DNA of 49,374 nucleotides from Candidatus Didemnitutus sp. (GTDB taxonomy: Bacteria; Verrucomicrobiota; Verrucomicrobiia; Opitutales; Opitutaceae): contig JAUXXD010000146.1 in the NCBI GenBank assembly GCA_030681265.1, positions 1-49,374 of the forward strand, read 5' to 3'. The translations under genes and the position numbers were made by a program. The notes beneath the pieces are model-generated. The model searched no databases. It worked only from the letters and a program-made list of their open reading frames with translations, and was not told the DNA's origin. Shown piece after piece: positions 32,412 through 43,422 of this stretch. Positions within the stretch are counted from its first letter, which is position 1. Every line of letters begins with the position of its first letter.

Positions 32412-32518
32412 CAAGACTACGTGCGCCGCTGTGGTGGTATCCCTATTTCGAAAATCCCTGCGACGAAACCGCTGCGGTCGAACAATAAGATCAGCAATTC
32501 GGGGGCCTAAAAAACGTC

Positions 32519-32929
32519 ATGAGAAAAACAGACCTGCCTTTTCTTCCTGCGACTCAATCGGAGCCTCTGGCGTCCGCGCCCCCGAATTGCGCTGTATCGC
32601 CGGGTTCGGCGGCTCGGTGCCCGAAGTGCAACGGCGTCGGATACCACGTCCGCGTCCGCAACTTCGACACCGAGGACGCCGACGTGTGGGAATGCCAATC
32701 GCCGCTCTGCACGGCCTACGGCCTGCTGTGGCACTCGCCGCGCCCGAAGGATGCGCTCGGCGAAATGCGGTGCGCTCTCCTCGCGCTGGTCGAAGCCGAG
32801 AAGGCCAGCCGCGACAACTTCGACAGCAACGCAATCGATCGAATCGAGCGAGCGATGCAGCGCGCTGACCGCGTGCTCTTTCCGGAACGCTATTCGCCGA
32901 ACCCTGATTCTGCGAAGAATTCTGCATAA
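32519..32929 (+). CDS. Zinc-ribbon-like small protein with shared C-terminus
   Basis: Protein of 136 aa. A CPKCNGVGYHV knuckle and ECQSPLC form a likely zinc ribbon (about 34-66). The C-terminus MQRADRVLFPERYSPNPDSA matches that of the product of 42123-42395 (MMRADRMLSPNPDSAKN), and the DNA has a 28-bp identical stretch. Codons end mainly in C, unlike the G-ending codons of the genes on either side, so it looks like a late arrival. The ribosome-binding site is weak. Confidence 0.6.
   Translation: MRKTDLPFLPATQSEPLASAPPNCAVSPGSAARCPKCNGVGYHVRVRNFDTEDADVWECQSPLCTAYGLLWHSPRPKDALGEMRCALLALVEAEKASRDNFDSNAIDRIERAMQRADRVLFPERYSPNPDSAKNSA
32894..32921 (+). repeat. 28-bp direct repeat, left copy
   Basis: This stretch (core GAACCCTGATTCTGCGAAG) is identical over 28 bp to 42360-42387. 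Both copies form the last codons of small genes and are followed by similar GCATAAC/GCAGATAAC sequence. Confidence 0.9.
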
Positions 32930-32987
32930 CGAAATCCATAAATCTCGGAGCTGCTACGTTCTCTATTTTTCTGACCCATCTTAATTT

Positions 32988-34538
32988 ATGACCATCGCTT
33001 CCTCTCCTGTTCTCACGATCCGCGTTGCGGATATTACGGCTTCGCCGTTGAATCCGCGGCACACGCGCTCGCGCGCCTACGCTGAGGAGAAGTTGCGCGA
33101 GCTGGGGGAATCCATGCTGAGCGCGCCGGGGCAACTGGAGGCGGTGCTGGTGCGCCCGCGCTCCGCCGCTCCGGGCAAGTATGAGCTGGTGAACGGCGAG
33201 CGGCGCTGGCGCGCGGCGAAACTGGGGGGGATGGTGGAGATCGCGGCGCGGGTGTCGCCGCTGACGGATGGCGAGGCGCTGGATATCATGCTGGCGGTGG
33301 GCTCGGGCGCGAATGTCGAGCCGTTGACGGCGTTAGAACAGGCGGAGGGCTACCAGCGGCTCATGGCGTTGCGGGGCTACGACGTAGGCAAGCTGGCGAA
33401 GCATTTGGGGCGCTCGGATATGACGGTGTGCCGGAGCTTGGCATTGCTGGATTTGCCGCCGATTGGCCGCGAGGCGTTGGAGGCGGGCACGCTCTCAGCG
33501 ACGACGGCGTGGCGCATCGCACGCATCCCGGGCGCAGACATGCGCGAGCGGGCGGCGAAGGAAATATTGAACAACGACATGCATGGTGGTGTGATGCCGG
33601 AGCGGGCGGCGGCGGAGTGGATCGAAACGACGATCTGCCGGACGCTGAAGGGCGCGGTGTTTTCGATGCGTGATGCGACGTTGCTGCCGTCGGCGGGGGC
33701 GTGTGAGACGTGCCGCTTTCGTTCGGGGAACAATCCGGAGGAGTATGGCGACGTGCGCGATAAGTTCAAGTGCATGCATCCGGCGTGTTTCGAACAGAAG
33801 GTGGCGGCGCAGCGCGCGCGGGTGCTGGCGGAGGAGAAGAATGAGGGCAAGCAGCCGCTGACGCCGGAGGAAAATGCCGAGACGTTCAAGGCGGGCGAAC
33901 ATGGTCTAGCGTTTGATGCAGAGTTCGTTGCCTACACTCAGCCCCCGACGCTGGATTTGTTGAAAAAGGAAATCACCGGGCCGGTGCCGACGTGGCGGGC
34001 GCTGTGTGGCTCTCGAGTGCAGGTGTATGTGGGCATCAATCAAGACGGCATGGCCGTGGATCTGGTGCGGCTGGGTGAGGCGTTCGCGGCGGTGTCGGAG
34101 CCGACGATTTTCAATAAGGACACGGTGCGGCGCTACGGGTTGGCGATGGAGTCGGCGATCGTGACGCTGGCGGCGAAGGGTCGCACGGCGTCGGAGATTG
34201 CAGCGGAGAAGCATTTGCCGGTGGAGCATGTGCGGGCGGTGCTGGCGCGGACGCGGCAGCACCGGAGTGCGCCGGCCGTCGTGCGGCGGGCGAAGGCGGA
34301 AGACGGTGCTGGGGAGCAATACGGCACAGCGATGGCTGCTGAGCCTCGGCTGTGTGATCAGCTGGGCGCGAGTAAGCTGGTGTTCGAAGCTGATTTTAAT
34401 GCGTTGATGGAGCTGGTGGTGAATGCGCACCACGATTGGAAGTCCGCGCCGGAGGCATGGCTAATCGCGGCAGAGGCGGTGCTGCGGCGGCATGACCGGA
34501 TCGATGATGACGAAGAGGAGTCGACCACCGAAGGCTGA
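32988..34538 (+). CDS. ParB/RepB/Spo0J-family protein
   Basis: DNA-binding protein of 516 aa. The N-terminal ParB nucleotide-binding domain shows ITASPLNPRHTRS and ELVNGERRWRAAKLGG. The central helix-turn-helix is DVGKLAKHLGRSDMTVCRSL. A zinc-ribbon-like part (ACETCRFRSGNNP, later KCMHPACFEQK) follows at about residues 240-270, as in phage and plasmid ParB relatives. The C-terminal 200 residues are alpha-helical with a second possible HTH (GRTASEIAAEKHLPVEHVRA). No ParA partner is visible, so a role in gene regulation or replication is as likely as partition. It starts the replication block. Confidence 0.85.
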   Translation: MTIASSPVLTIRVADITASPLNPRHTRSRAYAEEKLRELGESMLSAPGQLEAVLVRPRSAAPGKYELVNGERRWRAAKLGGMVEIAARVSPLTDGEALDIMLAVGSGANVEPLTALEQAEGYQRLMALRGYDVGKLAKHLGRSDMTVCRSLALLDLPPIGREALEAGTLSATTAWRIARIPGADMRERAAKEILNNDMHGGVMPERAAAEWIETTICRTLKGAVFSMRDATLLPSAGACETCRFRSGNNPEEYGDVRDKFKCMHPACFEQKVAAQRARVLAEEKNEGKQPLTPEENAETFKAGEHGLAFDAEFVAYTQPPTLDLLKKEITGPVPTWRALCGSRVQVYVGINQDGMAVDLVRLGEAFAAVSEPTIFNKDTVRRYGLAMESAIVTLAAKGRTASEIAAEKHLPVEHVRAVLARTRQHRSAPAVVRRAKAEDGAGEQYGTAMAAEPRLCDQLGASKLVFEADFNALMELVVNAHHDWKSAPEAWLIAAEAVLRRHDRIDDDEEESTTEG

Positions 34539-34542
34539 GTGG

Positions 34543-34606
34543 CCCACGGAACACACGGAAGACACGAAAAGGGTTAACCACGAAAACCACGAAACACACG
34601 AAAGAG
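34543..34606. repeat. CCACGAAACACACGAA-type interspersed repeat, copy 2
   Basis: Second copy of the repeat: CCACGGAACACACGG, GACACGAAAAGGG, then AACCACGAAAACCACG and AAACACACGAAAGAGG. As in the first copy, it sits directly in front of a gene and provides a GAGGGG ribosome-binding site before the ATG at 34615. Confidence 0.75.
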
Positions 34607-34614
34607 GGGAACTT

Positions 34615-35541
34615 ATGGGCGCTGATACAAAAATCCAGTGGTGCGATGCCACGCTTAACCCGTGGATCGGGTGCACGAAGGTTTCTCCGGGGTGCAAGAA
34701 TTGTTACGCAGAGACGTGCACGCCGGTGCGGGCCTTCCGCATCGGCTGGGGCGCGGGTGCTCCGCGGTGGCGCGTGAAGAGCTTCGCGGCGGCGGCACGG
34801 GCGGCGAATCGCAAGGCCGGCCGGCTGGGGCGCCGGCTACGGGTTTTCCCGTCGCTGTGTGACTGGCTCGACATGGAGGTGGCGGAAGCGTGGCTGGCGG
34901 ATTTTGTGACGACGATCGCGGAGACGCCGGAGCTGGATTGGCTGTTGCTGACGAAGCGTCCGCAGGTGTGGCGCGCGCGGATGGTGGCGGTGCGGCATGT
35001 GCTGGCGTCGCGCGAACACGCGGGGGCGTATATGCTCGTAGATGCGTGGCTGGCGGGCTCGGCTCCGGCGAACGTGTGGATCGGTGTGAGCATCGAGGAC
35101 CAGGCGCGCGCGGAGCAACGGATGCCGGAGTTGGTGGAGATTCCAGCGCGGGTGAGGTTTCTTTCGTGTGAGCCGCTCATCGGCGGATTAGACCTTAATT
35201 ACTGGCTTACCGTTTGTCTGGTGCCACAGGTGCAATGGGTGATTGTCGGCGGTGAGAGCGGCGCTGGCGCGCGGCCATGCGATGCGGCGTGGGTGGAGTC
35301 GATTATCGAGCAGTGCGCGGCGGTGCGTGTCTCGTGTTTCGTGAAGCAACTTGGTGCGCGGGCGTATCGCGATGACTTGAATGGTCGCGAAGCGTTTATC
35401 GGCATCATCGGCGGCAAGTTGACGCATCGTGCGGAAGACGGGCAGCGCGTGTGGGCGAAGTGGAAGCATTCGAAAGGCGGCGATTCCGAAGAGTGGGCCG
35501 AGGTGTTTCGCGTGCGGGAGTTTCCGGGGGTGCGGTCATGA
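34615..35541 (+). CDS. Phage Gp37/Gp68 family protein (DUF5131)
   Basis: Protein of 308 aa common in phages and plasmids. The family start MGADTKIQWCDATLNPWIGC is followed by the cysteine motif TKVSPGCKNCYAE (C20, C27, C30), which resembles a radical-SAM-type cluster site. Further conserved pieces are LDWLLLTKRP, NVWIGVSIEDQ, RFLSCEPLIGG and VQWVIVGGESGAGARP. The biochemical role is unproven. I chose the ATG at 34615 because it gives the family start and has a ribosome-binding site; upstream codons lie in repeat DNA. Its stop overlaps the next start (ATGA). Confidence 0.9.
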   Translation: MGADTKIQWCDATLNPWIGCTKVSPGCKNCYAETCTPVRAFRIGWGAGAPRWRVKSFAAAARAANRKAGRLGRRLRVFPSLCDWLDMEVAEAWLADFVTTIAETPELDWLLLTKRPQVWRARMVAVRHVLASREHAGAYMLVDAWLAGSAPANVWIGVSIEDQARAEQRMPELVEIPARVRFLSCEPLIGGLDLNYWLTVCLVPQVQWVIVGGESGAGARPCDAAWVESIIEQCAAVRVSCFVKQLGARAYRDDLNGREAFIGIIGGKLTHRAEDGQRVWAKWKHSKGGDSEEWAEVFRVREFPGVRS

Positions 35542-37732: not shown

Positions 37733-39463
37733 ATGAGCGAAATGACCAAACAGCCGCCTGGACCGGCGGATGAACAGGCTGCTGCCGCTAATCGCGTGGC
37801 GCGGCAAATGGCAGGGTCGGCGATCGAGCCGACGGCTGCGCCCGCGGCACCGAAGCCGGATGCCGACGATCTCTCGGATGACGTGAAGCCGCATGTGCGG
37901 TTGCCGTGCGAGGGGTATGGGCTGCATCGCTTCGCGCGGGAGATCGGCGGGCTGTGCAAAATGAACGGGGTGTTTCGCATGCAGGATGTGCCGGTGCTGA
38001 TCAATTACGAGATTGGGCAGGCAGTGCCGCTCTCGCCGGGGCGGTTCCGGACTTACGCGCACCGGCTGTGTGTGCCGGCGAAGTTCAAATGGGACAAGGA
38101 GGGCAACCGCGACGAAGTGGAGATGACGATGAGCAAGGACGTGGCGGCGGACACGTTGCAGTCGTTGGAATTTATCGAGCAGCAGCGGGCGCTGGCGAAG
38201 GTGAATGCGGAGCGGATGCCGCTGGTGCGACCGAGCGACGGGCGGCTGGTGTTGCTCAAGCCGGGCTACGATGAGGAGTCGAAGATATACACGCTGCCGA
38301 CGGCGTTGGAGATCGATGAGGCGATGACGGTGGATGCGGCGCGGGCGTTCATCAACGACCTGGTGGGCGAAGTGCCGTGGGGCGATGTGAAGCCGGACAC
38401 GGAAGAGCATCGCGCGGCTGGTGTGGTGGGGCTGAGTCGCTCGAAGGCGGTTTGGCTGAGTTGTGCGGTGAGCTTGTATGGTTCGGGTTTGTTGCATCCG
38501 CTGAGCAACCGGATCCACTATGTTTTTGTGGCGAATGCGCAGCGCTCGGGCAAAACGCTGGTGGCGAAGATGGCGGTGGTGCCGATCTTCGGGTTGTCGA
38601 AATCGAAATCAAAGCCGCATGACGATAACGAGCTGCGGAAGATGCTGACTGCGGCGGCGCGCGGGAATGCGCCCTACTTTTTGCTCGATGATTTGGAGGG
38701 CATGCTGCGGAGCACGGATTTGAATGCGTTTATGACGGCTCCGACGTGGAGCGACCGGAAGTTCAACACGCAGGAAGAGATGAGTTCGCCGAAGCAGACG
38801 GTGGTGGTAATCACCGGAAACAATCTCGGTCTGTCGACGGACATCGCGAACCGCACGTTGCGTTGCCAGCTTTACACGGAAGAGTTCGACGCGCAGTCGC
38901 GAGTGATCAATCGTGTGATCGATGAGGAGTATCTGGCGCGGCCGAGTGTGCGGCGGCAGTTCCTGAGCGCGATGTGGTGCTTCGTTCGCGAGTGGGACAA
39001 GGCGGGGCGGCCGAAGGGCAAGCGCGTGCTGAAGGGCTTCGAGGCGTGGTGCGATATTTTCGGCGGCATCGTGTCGCACGCGGGCTTCGGCGATCCGGTA
39101 GAGGCGCCGCCGACGGATGATTTCTCGGGCGACACCGAGGGCGCGGACATGCAGACGCTGGTGGGCGTGCTGGTGGAGGACATGGGTGTGCTGACGAAGA
39201 AGGAGTATCAGTTTGCGGAGCTGGTGGACGCGGCGCGGGAGCACGATTGTTTCACGTGGATGATCAAGGGGCGCGAGCGGACGGAGAAGGAGAGCGACAA
39301 GACGACGTATGACCTAGAGCCGACGGCGAAGAGCTCGATGGGGAAGATGTTTTCCGCCAAATACGGCGGGCGGAAATTTCGCCTGGCGGACGGACGCGTG
39401 GTGCAGTTTGGCCAGCGCGGCCGCAACCGGCATCGGCGGTATGTGGTGGAGGTGCTGACGTGA
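37733..39463 (+). CDS. AAA+/SF3-like phage replicative helicase
   Basis: Protein of 576 aa. The ATPase core is Walker A FVANAQRSGKTLVAKMA (about 264-280), Walker B PYFLLDDLEGML (about 313-324) and a sensor asparagine in TVVVITGNNLGLSTDI (about 354-369), followed by the arginine-finger-like ANRTLRCQL. The N-terminal half (LPCEGYGLHRFAREIG and similar) has no recognised motif. It matches helicases found next to AEP primases in phages and plasmids. I chose the ATG at 37733 because upstream codons overlap the primase gene. Codons end mostly in G. It ends the G-ending early block. Confidence 0.78.
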   Translation: MSEMTKQPPGPADEQAAAANRVARQMAGSAIEPTAAPAAPKPDADDLSDDVKPHVRLPCEGYGLHRFAREIGGLCKMNGVFRMQDVPVLINYEIGQAVPLSPGRFRTYAHRLCVPAKFKWDKEGNRDEVEMTMSKDVAADTLQSLEFIEQQRALAKVNAERMPLVRPSDGRLVLLKPGYDEESKIYTLPTALEIDEAMTVDAARAFINDLVGEVPWGDVKPDTEEHRAAGVVGLSRSKAVWLSCAVSLYGSGLLHPLSNRIHYVFVANAQRSGKTLVAKMAVVPIFGLSKSKSKPHDDNELRKMLTAAARGNAPYFLLDDLEGMLRSTDLNAFMTAPTWSDRKFNTQEEMSSPKQTVVVITGNNLGLSTDIANRTLRCQLYTEEFDAQSRVINRVIDEEYLARPSVRRQFLSAMWCFVREWDKAGRPKGKRVLKGFEAWCDIFGGIVSHAGFGDPVEAPPTDDFSGDTEGADMQTLVGVLVEDMGVLTKKEYQFAELVDAAREHDCFTWMIKGRERTEKESDKTTYDLEPTAKSSMGKMFSAKYGGRKFRLADGRVVQFGQRGRNRHRRYVVEVLT

Positions 39464-39605
39464 GTGCGTGCCGTGGTGAGGATGATTGCGCGACATGAAT
39501 ACTGAAGACATGCGACAGCACTTTGAGGCAGACGGACGCCATCGCCAAGGCGGTCTCTGTCTTGGCCAACGCGGAGATCAGCCACAACCAGAACGGAGAA
39601 CCCTT

Positions 39606-39974
39606 ATGAACGAACAACCCAAAACAGACCCGTGGAAAACAGATATGGCGCCAGCGCAAAGCTACGCCTGCCGTGTGGGACCGAGCGCAGCAACCGCGCC
39701 CGAACAAGTGCAAACTAAGGTCGTTGCTGCTGTGCCGACCGGTTCGGGTCTTCTTGAAACCCTCGAAAGCATGGCGCGACAAAACTGCCACACCGGTCGC
39801 GTTGACCGCGACTACAACGGACAGGTCGCCGGAACACTCGTCACCGACAGCGGCGCGATTTCGGCACACGCGGACGCTCTCGAAACCCTAGCTGAACATG
39901 GTCGCTTCCGCATCGTCGCCGCGCGGGGCCGCATGGTAGTCGGCTACTGGCCGGAGAACGACCCGAACTCTTGA
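39606..39974 (+). CDS. Hypothetical small accessory phage protein
   Basis: Protein of 122 aa starting MNEQPKTDPWKTDMAPAQSY. The second half (SDSGAISAHADAL-like segment, then LETLAEHGRFRIVAARGRMV) could fold as a small alpha/beta unit. GGAG at 39594-39597 supports the ATG at 39606. Codons end in C or A, unlike the helicase before it. Function unknown. The preceding 142 bp contain no gene that I can support. Confidence 0.58.
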   Translation: MNEQPKTDPWKTDMAPAQSYACRVGPSAATAPEQVQTKVVAAVPTGSGLLETLESMARQNCHTGRVDRDYNGQVAGTLVTDSGAISAHADALETLAEHGRFRIVAARGRMVVGYWPENDPNS

Positions 39975-39975
39975 G

Positions 39976-40392
39976 ATGAGCAACGACGCGCCGATTACCC
40001 CCGCCTACACGATGCACCCCAAGATGCGGCGCAGACTGAGAAGCTACCGCATCCGGTCGGCTGCGCGTCGTTGGCTCAGGGGATTTTTTCGGCGTTTCCG
40101 GCAAGCGATATGCCGCCACGGATTCCGACTGGCCGACCTCACCAACACGGGCATCCCCCAACCGGCCAAGCCGACTGAAAACGCTGGATACTACGAGTGG
40201 CTGAACTACTACGCCCGACTGTCCGCGCACCCGGCAAACTCGCAGCGCGTGCGCTGGCCCTGCGCGAAATGCGGCAAGGTCTTCTTCGCTCACTGCGGCC
40301 TCGAAATCATGCACACACATGGCCCGATTCTTCCGCCGCCGAACAACCCGGTCAGCCACGGCCTGAGCGAAGCGAAGGACGTTGCGCTGTAG
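39976..40392 (+). CDS. Hypothetical zinc-finger-like small protein
   Basis: Protein of 138 aa. The N-terminus is strongly basic (MRRRLRSYRIRSAARRWLRG). Near the end a CAKCGK pair and AHCGLEIMHTHG offer four to five Cys/His ligands for zinc. It could bind nucleic acid. It starts almost directly after the previous stop. No family recognised. Confidence 0.55.
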   Translation: MSNDAPITPAYTMHPKMRRRLRSYRIRSAARRWLRGFFRRFRQAICRHGFRLADLTNTGIPQPAKPTENAGYYEWLNYYARLSAHPANSQRVRWPCAKCGKVFFAHCGLEIMHTHGPILPPPNNPVSHGLSEAKDVAL

Positions 40393-40415
40393 CGGACTGG
40401 TTAGCCTCCGAATTT

Positions 40416-40790
40416 ATGAGCGACAAAAACGAAAAAGACCTAGCGAACACCCGCGACCTCTTCGACTTCCTGCAAGGCAACTTGCCGGAGGGATACCAAG
40501 TCGCGCCCGACCACATGCCCAAGCTCACGGCCGATCAGGCCGCGACGGTGATCTGGTATCTCGGCAACCAATACTGGCAGGTCACGGACCACGTAGAGCG
40601 GTGCGAAGTCTGCGGCGACTGGTATAACGCATGGTGCGAAGGCGAGTGCCTCGATTTCGGAAAGGCGCCGTATCATTTCTGCGGCAACTGCTGCGCGGGC
40701 GAGGAAGCCCAACAGAAACGCCGCGTCGGCCGGGGCATCGAACGCGCCAAGAAGCGCCAGTGTCTTTTGGCTAACATAAAGAGCACCTAA
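40416..40790 (+). CDS. Hypothetical zinc-knuckle small protein (possible cassette gene)
   Basis: Protein of 124 aa, MSDKNEKDLANTRDLFDFLQ at the start. Cysteine pairs CEVCGDWYNAWCEGEC and FCGNCC suggest one or two zinc sites at about 70-100. The tail is basic (RGIERAKKRQ). The gene lies between GTTAGCC (40400-40406) and an inverted repeat that starts at its stop codon and ends GTTAGGT, an arrangement that resembles an integron gene cassette. Function unknown. Confidence 0.58.
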   Translation: MSDKNEKDLANTRDLFDFLQGNLPEGYQVAPDHMPKLTADQAATVIWYLGNQYWQVTDHVERCEVCGDWYNAWCEGECLDFGKAPYHFCGNCCAGEEAQQKRRVGRGIERAKKRQCLLANIKST

Positions 40791-40860
40791 CCCGGCCCCC
40801 GATGCACGACTCTCCAGCAGATCCTCGCGCCTACCAAGGCGGCAGCGACCGGGTTAGGTG
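40769..40860. repeat. attC-like inverted repeat
   Basis: Perfect 12-bp arms CACCTAACCCGG (40784-40795) and CCGGGTTAGGTG (40849-40860) enclose 53 bp. The ends read ACCTAAC and GTTAGGT, which match the RYYYAAC and GTTRRRY boxes of integron attC sites. GGCTAAC, complementary to the GTTAGCC in front of the gene, lies at 40769-40775. The stop codons of two convergent genes fall inside the arms, so a two-way terminator is the simplest alternative. Confidence 0.45.
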
Positions 40861-41039
40861 TCTCGCTTGGTTGGGGTCTTCTTTCGCAGCAGGAGCAGCA
40901 CTCCCGCCTGCATCGCCGCGCAGGGCTCAGCCCCGCGCATCCACAACTGGAGCGACCGCGGGGTCACTCCGCATACGCGAGCAGCCTCGGCAGTGCCGAG
41001 GCGCTCAACAAGCGGGCGGAGCTGGATCGCGAAGCTCAT
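40854..41039 (-). CDS. Small HTH repressor-like protein
   Basis: Protein of 61 aa. The helix-turn-helix is LGTAEAARVCGVTPRSLQLW, with a basic tail (RKKTPTKRDT). The length and layout suit a Cro/YdaS-type phage regulator. Its ATG overlaps the stop of the small minus-strand gene in front (ATGA). It is one of few minus-strand genes in the prophage and lies downstream of palindromic operator-like sites at 41254-41300, so autoregulation is likely. Confidence 0.7.
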   Translation of the reverse strand: MSFAIQLRPLVERLGTAEAARVCGVTPRSLQLWMRGAEPCAAMQAGVLLLLRKKTPTKRDT

Positions 41040-41239
41040 GCGACGGGATCAACGAGCTTCGACCACGTCCAGCCCGAGCCGGGGCACCGGCGATTGCGAG
41101 CCGCGCACTCGCGGCGGGCATCGACCTGCGTGAACGCCAGGTCGGACAAGTGGAACTGGTGGCGGCGGCTGGGAGCCGGGGAACCGGCGCAGACAGTGTG
41201 GGCGCGATAGAGGCCGTAGCGGAACATGGGGGTCTTCAT
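41036..41239 (-). CDS. Hypothetical small protein upstream of HTH repressor
   Basis: Protein of about 67 aa starting MKTPMFRYGLYRAHTVCAGS, rich in Arg, His and Cys. An ATG five codons earlier (41254) lies within the first palindrome. No family is recognised. Its stop overlaps the start of the HTH gene (ATGA), which supports a two-gene operon, but the protein could also be only a translated leader. Confidence 0.45.
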   Translation of the reverse strand: MKTPMFRYGLYRAHTVCAGSPAPSRRHQFHLSDLAFTQVDARRECAARNRRCPGSGWTWSKLVDPVA

Positions 41240-41253
41240 AGTGACTATGATCA

Positions 41254-41301
41254 TGCGAATTTATTTCGCACTTGCAAGCACGAAAGCGAAATAATTTCGC
41301 A
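41254..41301. promoter_or_regulatory. Paired palindromic operator-like sites
   Basis: TGCGAATTTATTTCGCA (41254-41270) and GCGAAATAATTTCGC (41286-41300) are two versions of one 15-bp palindrome. Their centres are 31 bp apart, about three helical turns. CTTGCAAG lies between. They sit in the gap between the minus-strand repressor operon and the plus-strand genes from 41365, as phage operators do. Confidence 0.68.
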
Positions 41302-41364
41302 CCCGGATTGTAATGACCCCAACAACCGAGATGTGCCGACGAGCGGCACGAACGGGGAACTCTT

Positions 41365-41571
41365 ATGAGCGACAACTACCCAAACTATCCCGACTACCAA
41401 CCCATGAATGCCTGCACCGGCAGCGAATTGCTGGAAGCCCCGAGCGCAGTGACCACGACCGAATCAGGTGCAGCGCCGCTCGTTGGCACTGGCTCGTGGA
41501 TGAACCAAGCCGCTGCGCGGCGCAGGGAATCGTGGACAGTGGCGACCATTGGCGTCAATGTGTGCGGGTGA
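41365..41571 (+). CDS. Hypothetical small phage protein
   Basis: Protein of 68 aa, MSDNYPNYPDYQPMNACTGS, tyrosine- and proline-rich at the start, then a Ser/Thr/Gly stretch. No domain. GGGG at 41351-41354 and the spacing to ATG support translation. It would be the first plus-strand gene behind the palindromic operator. Confidence 0.45.
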   Translation: MSDNYPNYPDYQPMNACTGSELLEAPSAVTTTESGAAPLVGTGSWMNQAAARRRESWTVATIGVNVCG

Positions 41572-41585
41572 CAGGGTTGGCGTGC

Positions 41586-41873
41586 ATGAAAATAAATTTC
41601 GCGAGTCCCGTAAGTAGGCATTTCAAGCGTTGCGCGTGCGCTGCGCGCTACGGCGCAGCAGAACGCTCAGAGTTGGGGCGCGGCGGCGGCGTGCTCATCA
41701 CGCTGCCTCTCTACCTCGTGCTTTGGAGCGCGGCGGAAATCCTGAATGACGCTACCGGCTACGTCGTGTTCGGCGTCAGCCTCATGCTCTGGCCCTGCCA
41801 GTGGGCCTTTGATCTAGGCCGCTCCGCCGCGCGCCCCAACGACGATAATGAGACACGCGGCACCAAATCCTAA
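41586..41873 (+). CDS. Hypothetical small membrane protein
   Basis: Protein of 95 aa with two hydrophobic segments (VLITLPLYLVLWSAAEIL and YVVFGVSLMLWPCQW) that should span the inner membrane. The N-terminus is basic and the C-terminus charged. An in-frame ATG at 41313 would overlap the preceding gene and is less likely. A superinfection-exclusion or lysis-related role is possible but unsupported. Confidence 0.5.
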   Translation: MKINFASPVSRHFKRCACAARYGAAERSELGRGGGVLITLPLYLVLWSAAEILNDATGYVVFGVSLMLWPCQWAFDLGRSAARPNDDNETRGTKS

Positions 41874-41880
41874 ATCACTA

Positions 41881-42119
41881 TGAAACCTTCCGAAAACCAA
41901 ATAACTCCCGCCCGCGTTGTCTCTGGTGATTGTTCGGCACTGCATTGGCTTTGGGTTTGGCCTCTCGCTATATTCGCAAGCCCAATCGGCATAATCTCGG
42001 TGGCAGCTCTCGCACCGGCCTTCTGGCCACTCCCGCTCGCCGCAATGTTAATCGGTCTGTGTGCGGCCGGCGTCGTCGATGACGAGCCTAACACGACAAG
42101 TGAGCCACGCGGAATTTAA
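41881..42119 (+). CDS. Hypothetical small membrane protein
   Basis: Protein of 79 aa starting MKPSENQITPARVVSGDCSA. Two hydrophobic stretches (LHWLWVWPLAIFASPIGII and AALAPAFWPLPLAAMLIGLC) predict an inner-membrane protein. It starts seven bases after the previous membrane protein gene, so the two may act together. No family recognised. Confidence 0.5.
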
Positions 42120-42122
42120 CCT

Positions 42123-42395
42123 ATGAAAAACACACCTGAGATTGCCCGCGTTGGCTCTACGAATGGTTCGGCGGTCTGCGCTTGGTGCCGTGAGCCAGCC
42201 GGGCACACGCTCGGCGAATGCCCGGCGGCACTCAATCGCGAGGAGGCTGTAGCCGCACTCCTGCAATCACGCGAGCTGCTACGAGAACTCGCCGATTGCT
42301 ACTTTCTGCGGCGCAGCGAAGGGCTGCTCGAACTGATGATGCGCGCCGACCGGATGCTCTCGCCGAACCCTGATTCTGCGAAGAATTGCAGATAA
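42123..42395 (+). CDS. Hypothetical small protein sharing C-terminus with 32519 gene
   Basis: Protein of 90 aa. CAWCREPAGHTLGEC suggests a zinc knuckle (about 19-34). The rest is helical with LLQSRELLRELADCYF, and it ends LMMRADRMLSPNPDSAKN like the product of 32519-32929. The shared DNA is identical for 28 bp at the 3' end. The gene lies three bases after the previous stop and 25 bases before the integrase start. Confidence 0.6.
   Translation: MKNTPEIARVGSTNGSAVCAWCREPAGHTLGECPAALNREEAVAALLQSRELLRELADCYFLRRSEGLLELMMRADRMLSPNPDSAKNCR
42360..42387 (+). repeat. 28-bp direct repeat, right copy
   Basis: Identical over 28 bp to 32894-32921, in the same orientation and in the same position relative to the gene end. 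The two copies bracket 9.5 kb that holds the parB-like, replication and small accessory genes. Confidence 0.9.
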
Positions 42396-42420
42396 CAAAA
42401 CTAACTAACCACGCATTGAT

Positions 42421-43422
42421 ATGAAGTTGCCAAAAAACGAGGTGCTGTCGCGATTGGAATCGAGCTTGCGGCTTTTGGGGCAGGACCGGAATACCGTCAC
42501 GTCGTATTGCCGCACAGCGGCGCATTTCTATGACTTCGTGCGGGAGCAGCGTCCGGGGCTCAACTCTGAGCGGTTGGCCGAAGCGTTTCTGACGATGCGC
42601 GTGCGGCGCGATGATGTGTCGGCCTCCACTCAGAATCACGATCTGGCGGCGCTCAATGCGCTGTTCGCGGCGTTCGGGCGCAAGCTGGGGAACGTGGACG
42701 CGCTGCGCGCCAAGCGTCCGCAGTTTGCCCGGCATTGCCCGACGACGCCGGAGTTGATGGCGTTGCTGCGCACGCTGGCGGACACGCCGAAGGTGCCGGC
42801 GCGGCTCATGGCGTTGACGATGGCGGCAACGGGGTTGCGGATCTCAGAGTGCTTGGGTGCGCGGATGAAGGATTTCCGGCGCGAGTCGGACAAGCTCCAC
42901 CTCGTGGTGCGTGATCCGAAGCAGGCGCACGATCGATGGGTGCCAATCCCCGCGATGTTGTGGCCGGCACTCCGCGGTCAGGCGCTGCACGCTAGGCGGG
43001 TTTTCGCACAGGACCAGGCGCGTGCGGAGCCGTTGCCGATCGCCATGCCGAATGCGTTGGCGAGGAAATACCCGCGGTCTGCGCACTCGGTGGGATGGAT
43101 GTTCCTGTTCCCCTCGCCGAATCCGCAGCGGCATCCGGAGAAGAAAGTGCTGATGCGCTGGCATCAGCCTCCCGGTGATGTGCAACACGCATTCTCGCGG
43201 GCGTGTGATGAGCTCGAGAGAGCGGGGCAACTCGTGGCGCGCATCACGCCGCATCACTTGCGGCATTGGTATGGGACGCATTTCAACGGCGATCTGCGCG
43301 ACCTGCAGGAGCTGATGGGACATCGATCGATTGAGACCACGGCGCTCTATCGGCATCCGCAGCTCGACCGGGCAAGCAGCCCGCTAGAGCAGTTCGGCGC
43401 GCAGCTGGCGCTGACGGGCTGA
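42421..43422 (+). CDS. Integron-integrase-like tyrosine recombinase
   Basis: Recombinase of 333 aa, close to the 337 aa of IntI1. Catalytic residues are R140 (ATGLRISECL), K167, H278 and R281 (TPHHLRHWYG), H301 (LMGHRSIETT) and nucleophile Y310 (ALYRHP). Between the two boxes it has the extra segment that separates IntI from XerC/D: MPNALARKYPRSAHSVGWMF (208-227), then FPSPNPQRHP and LMRWHQPPGDVQHAFSRA. IntI1 has [20 protein letters not shown] at that place. It is the only integrase gene in the visible prophage, so it may serve tRNA-site integration, cassette exchange or both. Codons end in G like the replication genes, unlike the small genes before it. Confidence 0.88.
   Translation: MKLPKNEVLSRLESSLRLLGQDRNTVTSYCRTAAHFYDFVREQRPGLNSERLAEAFLTMRVRRDDVSASTQNHDLAALNALFAAFGRKLGNVDALRAKRPQFARHCPTTPELMALLRTLADTPKVPARLMALTMAATGLRISECLGARMKDFRRESDKLHLVVRDPKQAHDRWVPIPAMLWPALRGQALHARRVFAQDQARAEPLPIAMPNALARKYPRSAHSVGWMFLFPSPNPQRHPEKKVLMRWHQPPGDVQHAFSRACDELERAGQLVARITPHHLRHWYGTHFNGDLRDLQELMGHRSIETTALYRHPQLDRASSPLEQFGAQLALTG

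Follow-up and report, generated by a model that had tools for sequence, protein, structure and literature searches.

What a run of short orphan genes is doing between a helicase gene and an integrase gene of a prophage is the question raised by contig JAUXXD010000146.1 of Candidatus Didemnitutus sp. (Opitutaceae; assembly GCA_030681265.1), whose 49,374 nucleotides are referred to here as the window. The interval from the helicase stop (position 39,463) to the integrase start (42,421) holds seven short open reading frames (ORFs) on the plus strand and two on the minus strand (Table 1). A first-pass annotation had described this block as an accessory island of small genes of no recognized family, several of them encoding zinc-knuckle proteins and two encoding membrane proteins. 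The block proved to be real, two of its ORFs are hydrophobic, several carry CxxC pairs in their sequences, and none of its proteins reached a curated cut-off in Pfam or NCBIfam, while PHROGs gave weak matches only and PADLOC none. The locus is indeed an island of cassette genes in outline, but what the annotation missed is that the block and the flanking integrase very probably form an integron within the prophage's early region, with this integrase as its own and with a presumed capacity to recombine. What the sequence itself shows is the order of the genes, how the sites are built and covary, that attI is conserved, the reading frames, the absence of the block from related prophages and its recurrence in other phages.

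The best NCBIfam family of the integrase is TIGR02249, integron integrase (E 7.5e-47, 160 bits, full length), with a score about twice that of any Xer family. Its best match in the PDB is VchIntI4 (2a3v, E 7e-29), with an alignment that extends through the IntI-specific insertion ('PNALARKYP..W..LFPS...R.H') and the catalytic C-terminal part. By these comparisons, we class the protein as a divergent member of the IntI type. In a phylogenetic tree, it forms a clade with two IntIs from phage contigs and one from genome G046 (support 97/92), while chromosomal IntIs from the same bacterial family make up a separate, well-supported group; several further chromosomal sequences and two more phage IntIs found no confident placement. 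A scan of the genome contigs returned distant integrases only. As intI (42421-43422) lies inside the prophage, away from its edge, it probably does not serve as the integrase of the prophage itself; no search was made for another integrase or for the prophage ends.

At most gene junctions of the block, we found attC-like sites (W1 to W7 in Table 1). A box close to the 3' end of one gene comes first, followed by a spacer and a stem arm; the loop, in which the start codon of the following gene frequently lies, leads to the opposite arm, a second spacer and a second box within that gene. Minus-strand folds of 12 sites showed, in most of them, R boxes, an unpaired spacer, a stem and one extrahelical base, most clearly in W7, W6, W2 and the sites of viral contig L004 (see below). 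R and L boxes, an unpaired spacer and an extrahelical base, the features expected of attC, are thus present, with W2, W4 and W5 as degenerate cases. Across these 12 sites, 95.8% of the stem cells were paired and 16 were compensatory, a result as high as this being obtained in 0 of 500 shuffles; the same structures slid along the sites paired in at most 48%. A strict scan of the window returned three sites, all of one polarity and all within the block, and 40 shuffled windows gave 2 matches in total. No match was found in a search of Rfam. The annotation had also given each gene a separate leader. This is not the case, as the intergenic gaps are only 1 to 23 nt, except in the region of a minus-strand gene pair, and the supposed leaders are the arms of the predicted recombination sites.

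A candidate attI was located on the minus strand beside intI, where TTTTGTTATCTGCAATTCTTCGCAGAATCAGG is followed by GTTCGGC. A second copy lies elsewhere in the window, with AATTCTTCGCAGAATCAGGGTTCGGCGA identical, and a core, AATCAC..GTT[AC]G, is common to the sequences beside intI in other phages (L004, L111, L113 and L060). In both window copies, conservation extends as far as the GTT box at the 3' end of an ORF and is lost past it, and the junction was therefore placed at that box. The predicted attI thus adjoins intI and has the array on its far side, as expected of an integron; from this position, new cassettes would join next to intI. At the second copy, some 7 kb ahead of the main array, an integron-like unit (32477-32930) was observed that comprises this attI, one antisense cassette gene and one attC-like site.

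The cassettes consist of one or a few unrelated ORFs between sites, as in integrons generally, and the polarity of the sites relative to intI is standard. The cassette ORFs, however, are antisense to the attC polarity and run toward attI and intI, so that in the phage arrays they are not transcribed away from attI. Since sense orientation is usual for integrons and not defining, this marks a variant. In the window and L004, the AAC of the predicted crossover box was read as an Asn codon in all 12 ORFs that reach it, and the other box (R') was read as GGT TCG, in the same phase, in 11 of the 12 ORFs that pass it, W2 being the exception. This was extended to 51 sites from 21 loci, namely the window and viral contigs that carry an IntI of this type. 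At 42 of these sites, the Asn frame was the longest one upstream (p 8e-13), compared with 20 of 48 sites in a control of chromosomal arrays (Fisher p 3e-5); these p-values are indicative, as the sites are related and not fully independent. The next ORF was fused through the second box at 20 of the 51 sites, a stop was present there at 18, and neither applied at 13. Many ORFs have their start codon in the loop of the site to which they belong and thereby acquire a shared '..TGSA' leader. In L073 (6868-7731), a single 287-aa ORF runs in frame through two attC-like sites without a stop, seemingly as three fused cassettes.

Because the ORFs cross the box in a fixed frame, their last residues and stop codon are supplied by the following site or by attI. 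From what is known of the family, IntI would recombine the folded single strand of the attC-like sites with each other and with attI. The crossover box would be crossed in one frame, read as x-Pro/Ala-Asn, and any cassette joined to another or to attI would receive a short in-frame tail with its final residues and stop; ORFs starting in their own loop would pass in frame through the other box and gain a Gly-Ser-Ala leader. The ORFs presumably follow on from the helicase operon, reading toward attI and intI, and co-transcription with intI without a Pc promoter is possible; a consensus scan for Pc found promoter-like sites at chance level. Taken further, the chances seem about even that such elements are a phage-specific class of integron, in which the cassettes are reversed, crossover falls within the reading frame close to each gene's 3' end, no gene needs a stop of its own, recombination rewrites the C-terminal tail, and the array forms one early operon with the integrase.

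It could also be that the polarity is misassigned and that crossover occurs at the N-terminal leader box, in which case shuffling would swap start codons and leaders instead of tails. The leader frame is conserved too (the 11 of 12 above), and our first orientation label placed the crossover there; it was dropped after the extrahelical base and attI were compared with those of chromosomal integrons. In the canonical attC top strand, the 5' arm is recognized by the extrahelical base, whose position, together with the geometry of array and intI, agrees with the chromosomal integrons, while attI conservation in both window copies ends at the 3' box of the ORF. We thus consider misassigned polarity highly improbable and retain a crossover near the 3' end.

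The arrangement is not confined to the window. L004 encodes an integrase 56% identical to that of the window in an otherwise mostly unrelated phage, with a row of small orphan genes ahead of it, and genes of both arrays have '..TGSA' leader ends. (The contigs L004 and L005, taken from different IMG/VR samples, 3300001535 and 3300039210, show no sequence difference over 16,951 bp and are therefore not independent.) The leader of the last cassette gene before intI matches an ORF of phage contig L075 with 88% identity over 17 aa. With three phage IntIs as queries, relatives were identified at 40 viral loci, the weakest matches being doubtful, and the antisense layout recurs in about 20 IMG/VR contigs. 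Among the 27 viral loci analysed with upstream DNA, 53 sites of the expected polarity were found upstream of intI, along with 11 of the other polarity and 4 downstream. The structural scan applied to the window sites, when run on chromosomal integrons of genomes of the same bacterial family, gave 18 sites in L039, 12 in L044, and smaller arrays in L043, L045, L038 and L050. These sites have polarity opposite to intI and lie upstream of its start where intI could be located, a geometry shared by the phage arrays; the long ORFs of the chromosomal arrays are mostly sense and end near a site. The 5' arm of phage sites, GCCGAACCAGTCGCCAGAGCCAACG, is found letter for letter in the G025 chromosomal integron, which bears the 18-site array.

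The first-pass annotation had proposed comparing related prophages for variability of the block with conserved flanks, and this expectation was borne out. Prophages in the same-family genomes G217, G776 and G675 keep the helicase, terS, terL and the following gene in order (terL identity 68% in G217). Their helicase-terS gap is about 500-770 bp, against 4545 bp in the window, and this interval contains no block, no site and no IntI. Immediately upstream of terS, the sequence is partly common to the window and these prophages (GGCACTTTGACAC). With so short and site-free an interval in its relatives, the integron looks to have been inserted behind the helicase stop. IMG/VR scans with the helicase and terL found no relative, so this empty-site comparison rests on prophages in whole genomes.

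An ordinary moron block beside a phage integrase of the IntI-like subfamily, with the arms kept as a useful '..TGSA' leader code and not for recombination, would fit a leader common to many proteins. It would also fit Virus Rctr41k (L136, KX853513.1), whose IntI-like gene, annotated xerD and preceded by small same-strand genes, has no detectable attC sites. Against it stand the covarying stems, the 18 of 51 sites whose box holds an in-frame stop and which lack a leader, and an arm identical to that of chromosomal integrons with the opposite ORF direction; the whole block, this integrase included, is also absent from the related prophages. We regard this explanation as highly improbable.

Rctr41k is also one of several points that weigh against an integron. 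The integrase score of 160 bits is below the curated TIGR02249 cut-off of 265 bits. The strict scan recovered only three of the window sites, boxes are degenerate at W2, W4 and W5, and 6 of the 27 viral loci (L148, L154, L155, L161, L164 and L168) had no expected-polarity site upstream. The frame bias could stem in part from a common origin of cassette ends and not from selection. The searches turned up no closely related phage in which this backbone carries another array, and shuffling has therefore not been seen in the lineage; nor was any recombination product or population variant seen for the array, of which a single copy is known. A decayed or domesticated integron, in which the array was once built by IntI and the sites are now mere junctions of fixed phage genes, would fit the degenerate boxes, the lack of a rearranged relative and the truncated IntI of phage contig G454. 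The window IntI, on the other hand, is full length and aligned to VchIntI4 through its catalytic part, most stems are intact with compensatory changes, and a second attI with a single cassette is present at 32.5 kb. Decay is therefore a possibility to be kept in mind, although an unlikely one.

The annotation had also contrasted C- and A-ending codons in the block with G-ending codons in its two neighbors. Pooled third codon positions of the block are A.17, C.42, G.28 and T.14, and third-position G reaches.59 for the helicase gene and.56 for the integrase gene. The contrast with these two neighbors stands as claimed, but terL is C-ending as well (third-position C.57), so codon usage alone is not proof of foreign origin.

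Integrons and clusters of attC sites lacking integrases (CALINs) in phage genomes are already known (Qi et al. 2023, PMC9892861); that study tested attC sites of three virulent phages and reports that they recombine with attI1. Those elements share with the window an integron integrase, attC sites and cassettes without assigned function; as described there, they are host integron fragments, class 1 integrons or CALINs. The window, in contrast, belongs to a separate phage IntI lineage that recurs with its own arrays, and the accessible parts of PMC9892861 make no mention of antisense ORFs or of coding through sites. Sedentary chromosomal integrons of same-family genomes (G025, G052 and G016) have the same attC arm, extrahelical base and polarity relative to intI, but their cassette ORFs are mostly sense, start just past the site and do not run through it. 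In the reverse integrons of Treponema (PMC3607928, PMC7691350), intI and cassette genes also have the same direction. There, however, intI is transcribed toward attI, whereas attI lies upstream of the window intI start, intI points away from it, and the cassette ORFs are the reversed part. A literature search for antisense or in-frame integron cassettes, which covered neither most subscription papers nor bioRxiv, found no description. Relative to the literature found, cassette ORFs that are antisense, directed toward attI and intI, and cross the crossover box in one fixed frame are new.

Integrons have been described chiefly as platforms by which bacteria acquire adaptive genes. Should phages have an integron lineage of their own, with cassettes suited to an early phage operon, it would give them a way to collect and exchange small accessory genes, including those for DNA modification, and would provide a sequence handle for finding many more phage integrons. 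In-frame crossover predicts shared, swappable C-terminal tails and Gly-Ser-Ala leaders, and would account for orphan phage proteins that share a '..TGSA' start and a '..PN..' end.

As to function, the cassettes may encode small host-takeover or counter-defence proteins. In phage contig G730, the cassette beside IntI encodes a Mom-family DNA-modification protein (PF25680, E 1.3e-13), and a cassette of L077 is methylase-like (weak Pfam matches). Extending a counter-defence role from these contigs to the window is a reasonable guess. The defence and anti-defence screen that the annotation had called for gave 0 PADLOC matches among ten proteins, a weak test, as PADLOC covers mainly defence.

Table 1 Features of the integron-like locus and of the second unit in the window. 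HTH, helix-turn-helix.
Feature	Position	Strand	Basis
attC-like site of single cassette	32477-32610	-	fold, site/frame comparison
Single cassette gene (CxxC protein) at second attI	32519-32929	+	ORF list, comparison
Second attI-like site	32896-32930	-	sequence comparison
W1, attC-like, long loop	39564-39748	-	by eye; least certain of complete sites
Cassette gene, leader end ..VPTGSG	39606-39974	+	ORF list, site/frame table
W2, attC-like, long stem, plus-side R' box TTTCGGC	39962-40093	-	fold, strict scan
Cassette gene	39976-40392	+	ORF list, site/frame table
W3, attC-like, GTTAGCC type; in-frame TAG, next gene with own start	40338-40406	-	site/frame comparison
Cys-rich cassette gene, own start	40416-40790	+	ORF list, site/frame table
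61-aa HTH-like putative repressor	40854-41039	-	ORF list; marginal PHROG match
72-aa ORF, upstream of HTH gene	41036-41254	-	ORF list
Putative operators, two near-palindromic repeats	41254-41302		repeat search
W4, attC-like, intact stem arms (inverted repeat I8), degenerate plus-side R' box	41317-41506 (3' bound approximate)	-	inverted-repeat search
Small cassette gene, leader ..LVGTGSW	41365-41571	+	ORF list, sequence
W5, degenerate or foreign site, ORF tail 'NV..', 39-bp perfect match to a repeat near integrons of G060	41553-41672 (bounds uncertain)	-	weak, doubtful
Hydrophobic small-protein cassette gene	41586-41873	+	ORF list, site/frame table
W6, attC-like	41834-41938	-	fold, structural and strict scans
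Hydrophobic small-protein cassette gene	41880-42119	+	ORF list, site/frame table
W7, attC-like	42086-42172	- (canonical top strand)	structural scan, fold, strict scan
CxxC-protein cassette gene, leader MKNTPEIARVGSTNGSA	42123-42395	+	ORF list, site/frame table
attI-like site, end at core box GTTCGGC; codes for tail NPDSAKNCR-stop of last cassette gene	42362-42396	-	second window copy, shared core (..AATCA[CG]..GTT[CA]GGC-like)
intI-like integron integrase gene, 333 aa	42421-43422	+	TIGR02249, VchIntI4, tree

The repressor that the annotation had assigned to the block is only partly supported. The two minus-strand ORFs (41254-41036 and 41039-40854) overlap at ATGA, and the 61-aa product of the second is HTH-like and faces two near-palindromes, TGCGAATTTATTTCGC and GCGAAATAATTTCGCA (41254-41301); its match to PHROG 35 is marginal (E 0.008). 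The two palindromes are near-identical and sit between this operon and the divergent gene at 41365, and the operon runs in the canonical sense direction inside a cassette. A perfect 12-bp inverted repeat, CACCTAACCCGG/CCGGGTTAGGTG (40784-40860), spans the stop codons of the HTH-like gene and the convergent gene 40416-40790, which are 53 nt apart. It folds better than 200 of 200 shuffles; as an attC site it was dropped, as its arms pair straight on, without a spacer.

Outside the block, the window gene at 34492-35541, which we take to resemble phage Gp37/Gp68 proteins, has a 43% identical counterpart in L004 (3219-4247), just before the array of that phage. Genome G060 (L040, L041 and L042), of the same bacterial family, contains three nearly identical copies of intI, next to which lie repeated units of about 3.4 kb. 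A 39-bp stretch of the window (41639-41677) perfectly matches a repeat that occurs several times around these three intI copies, and near copies of it are present in the same-genus genomes G003 and G006.

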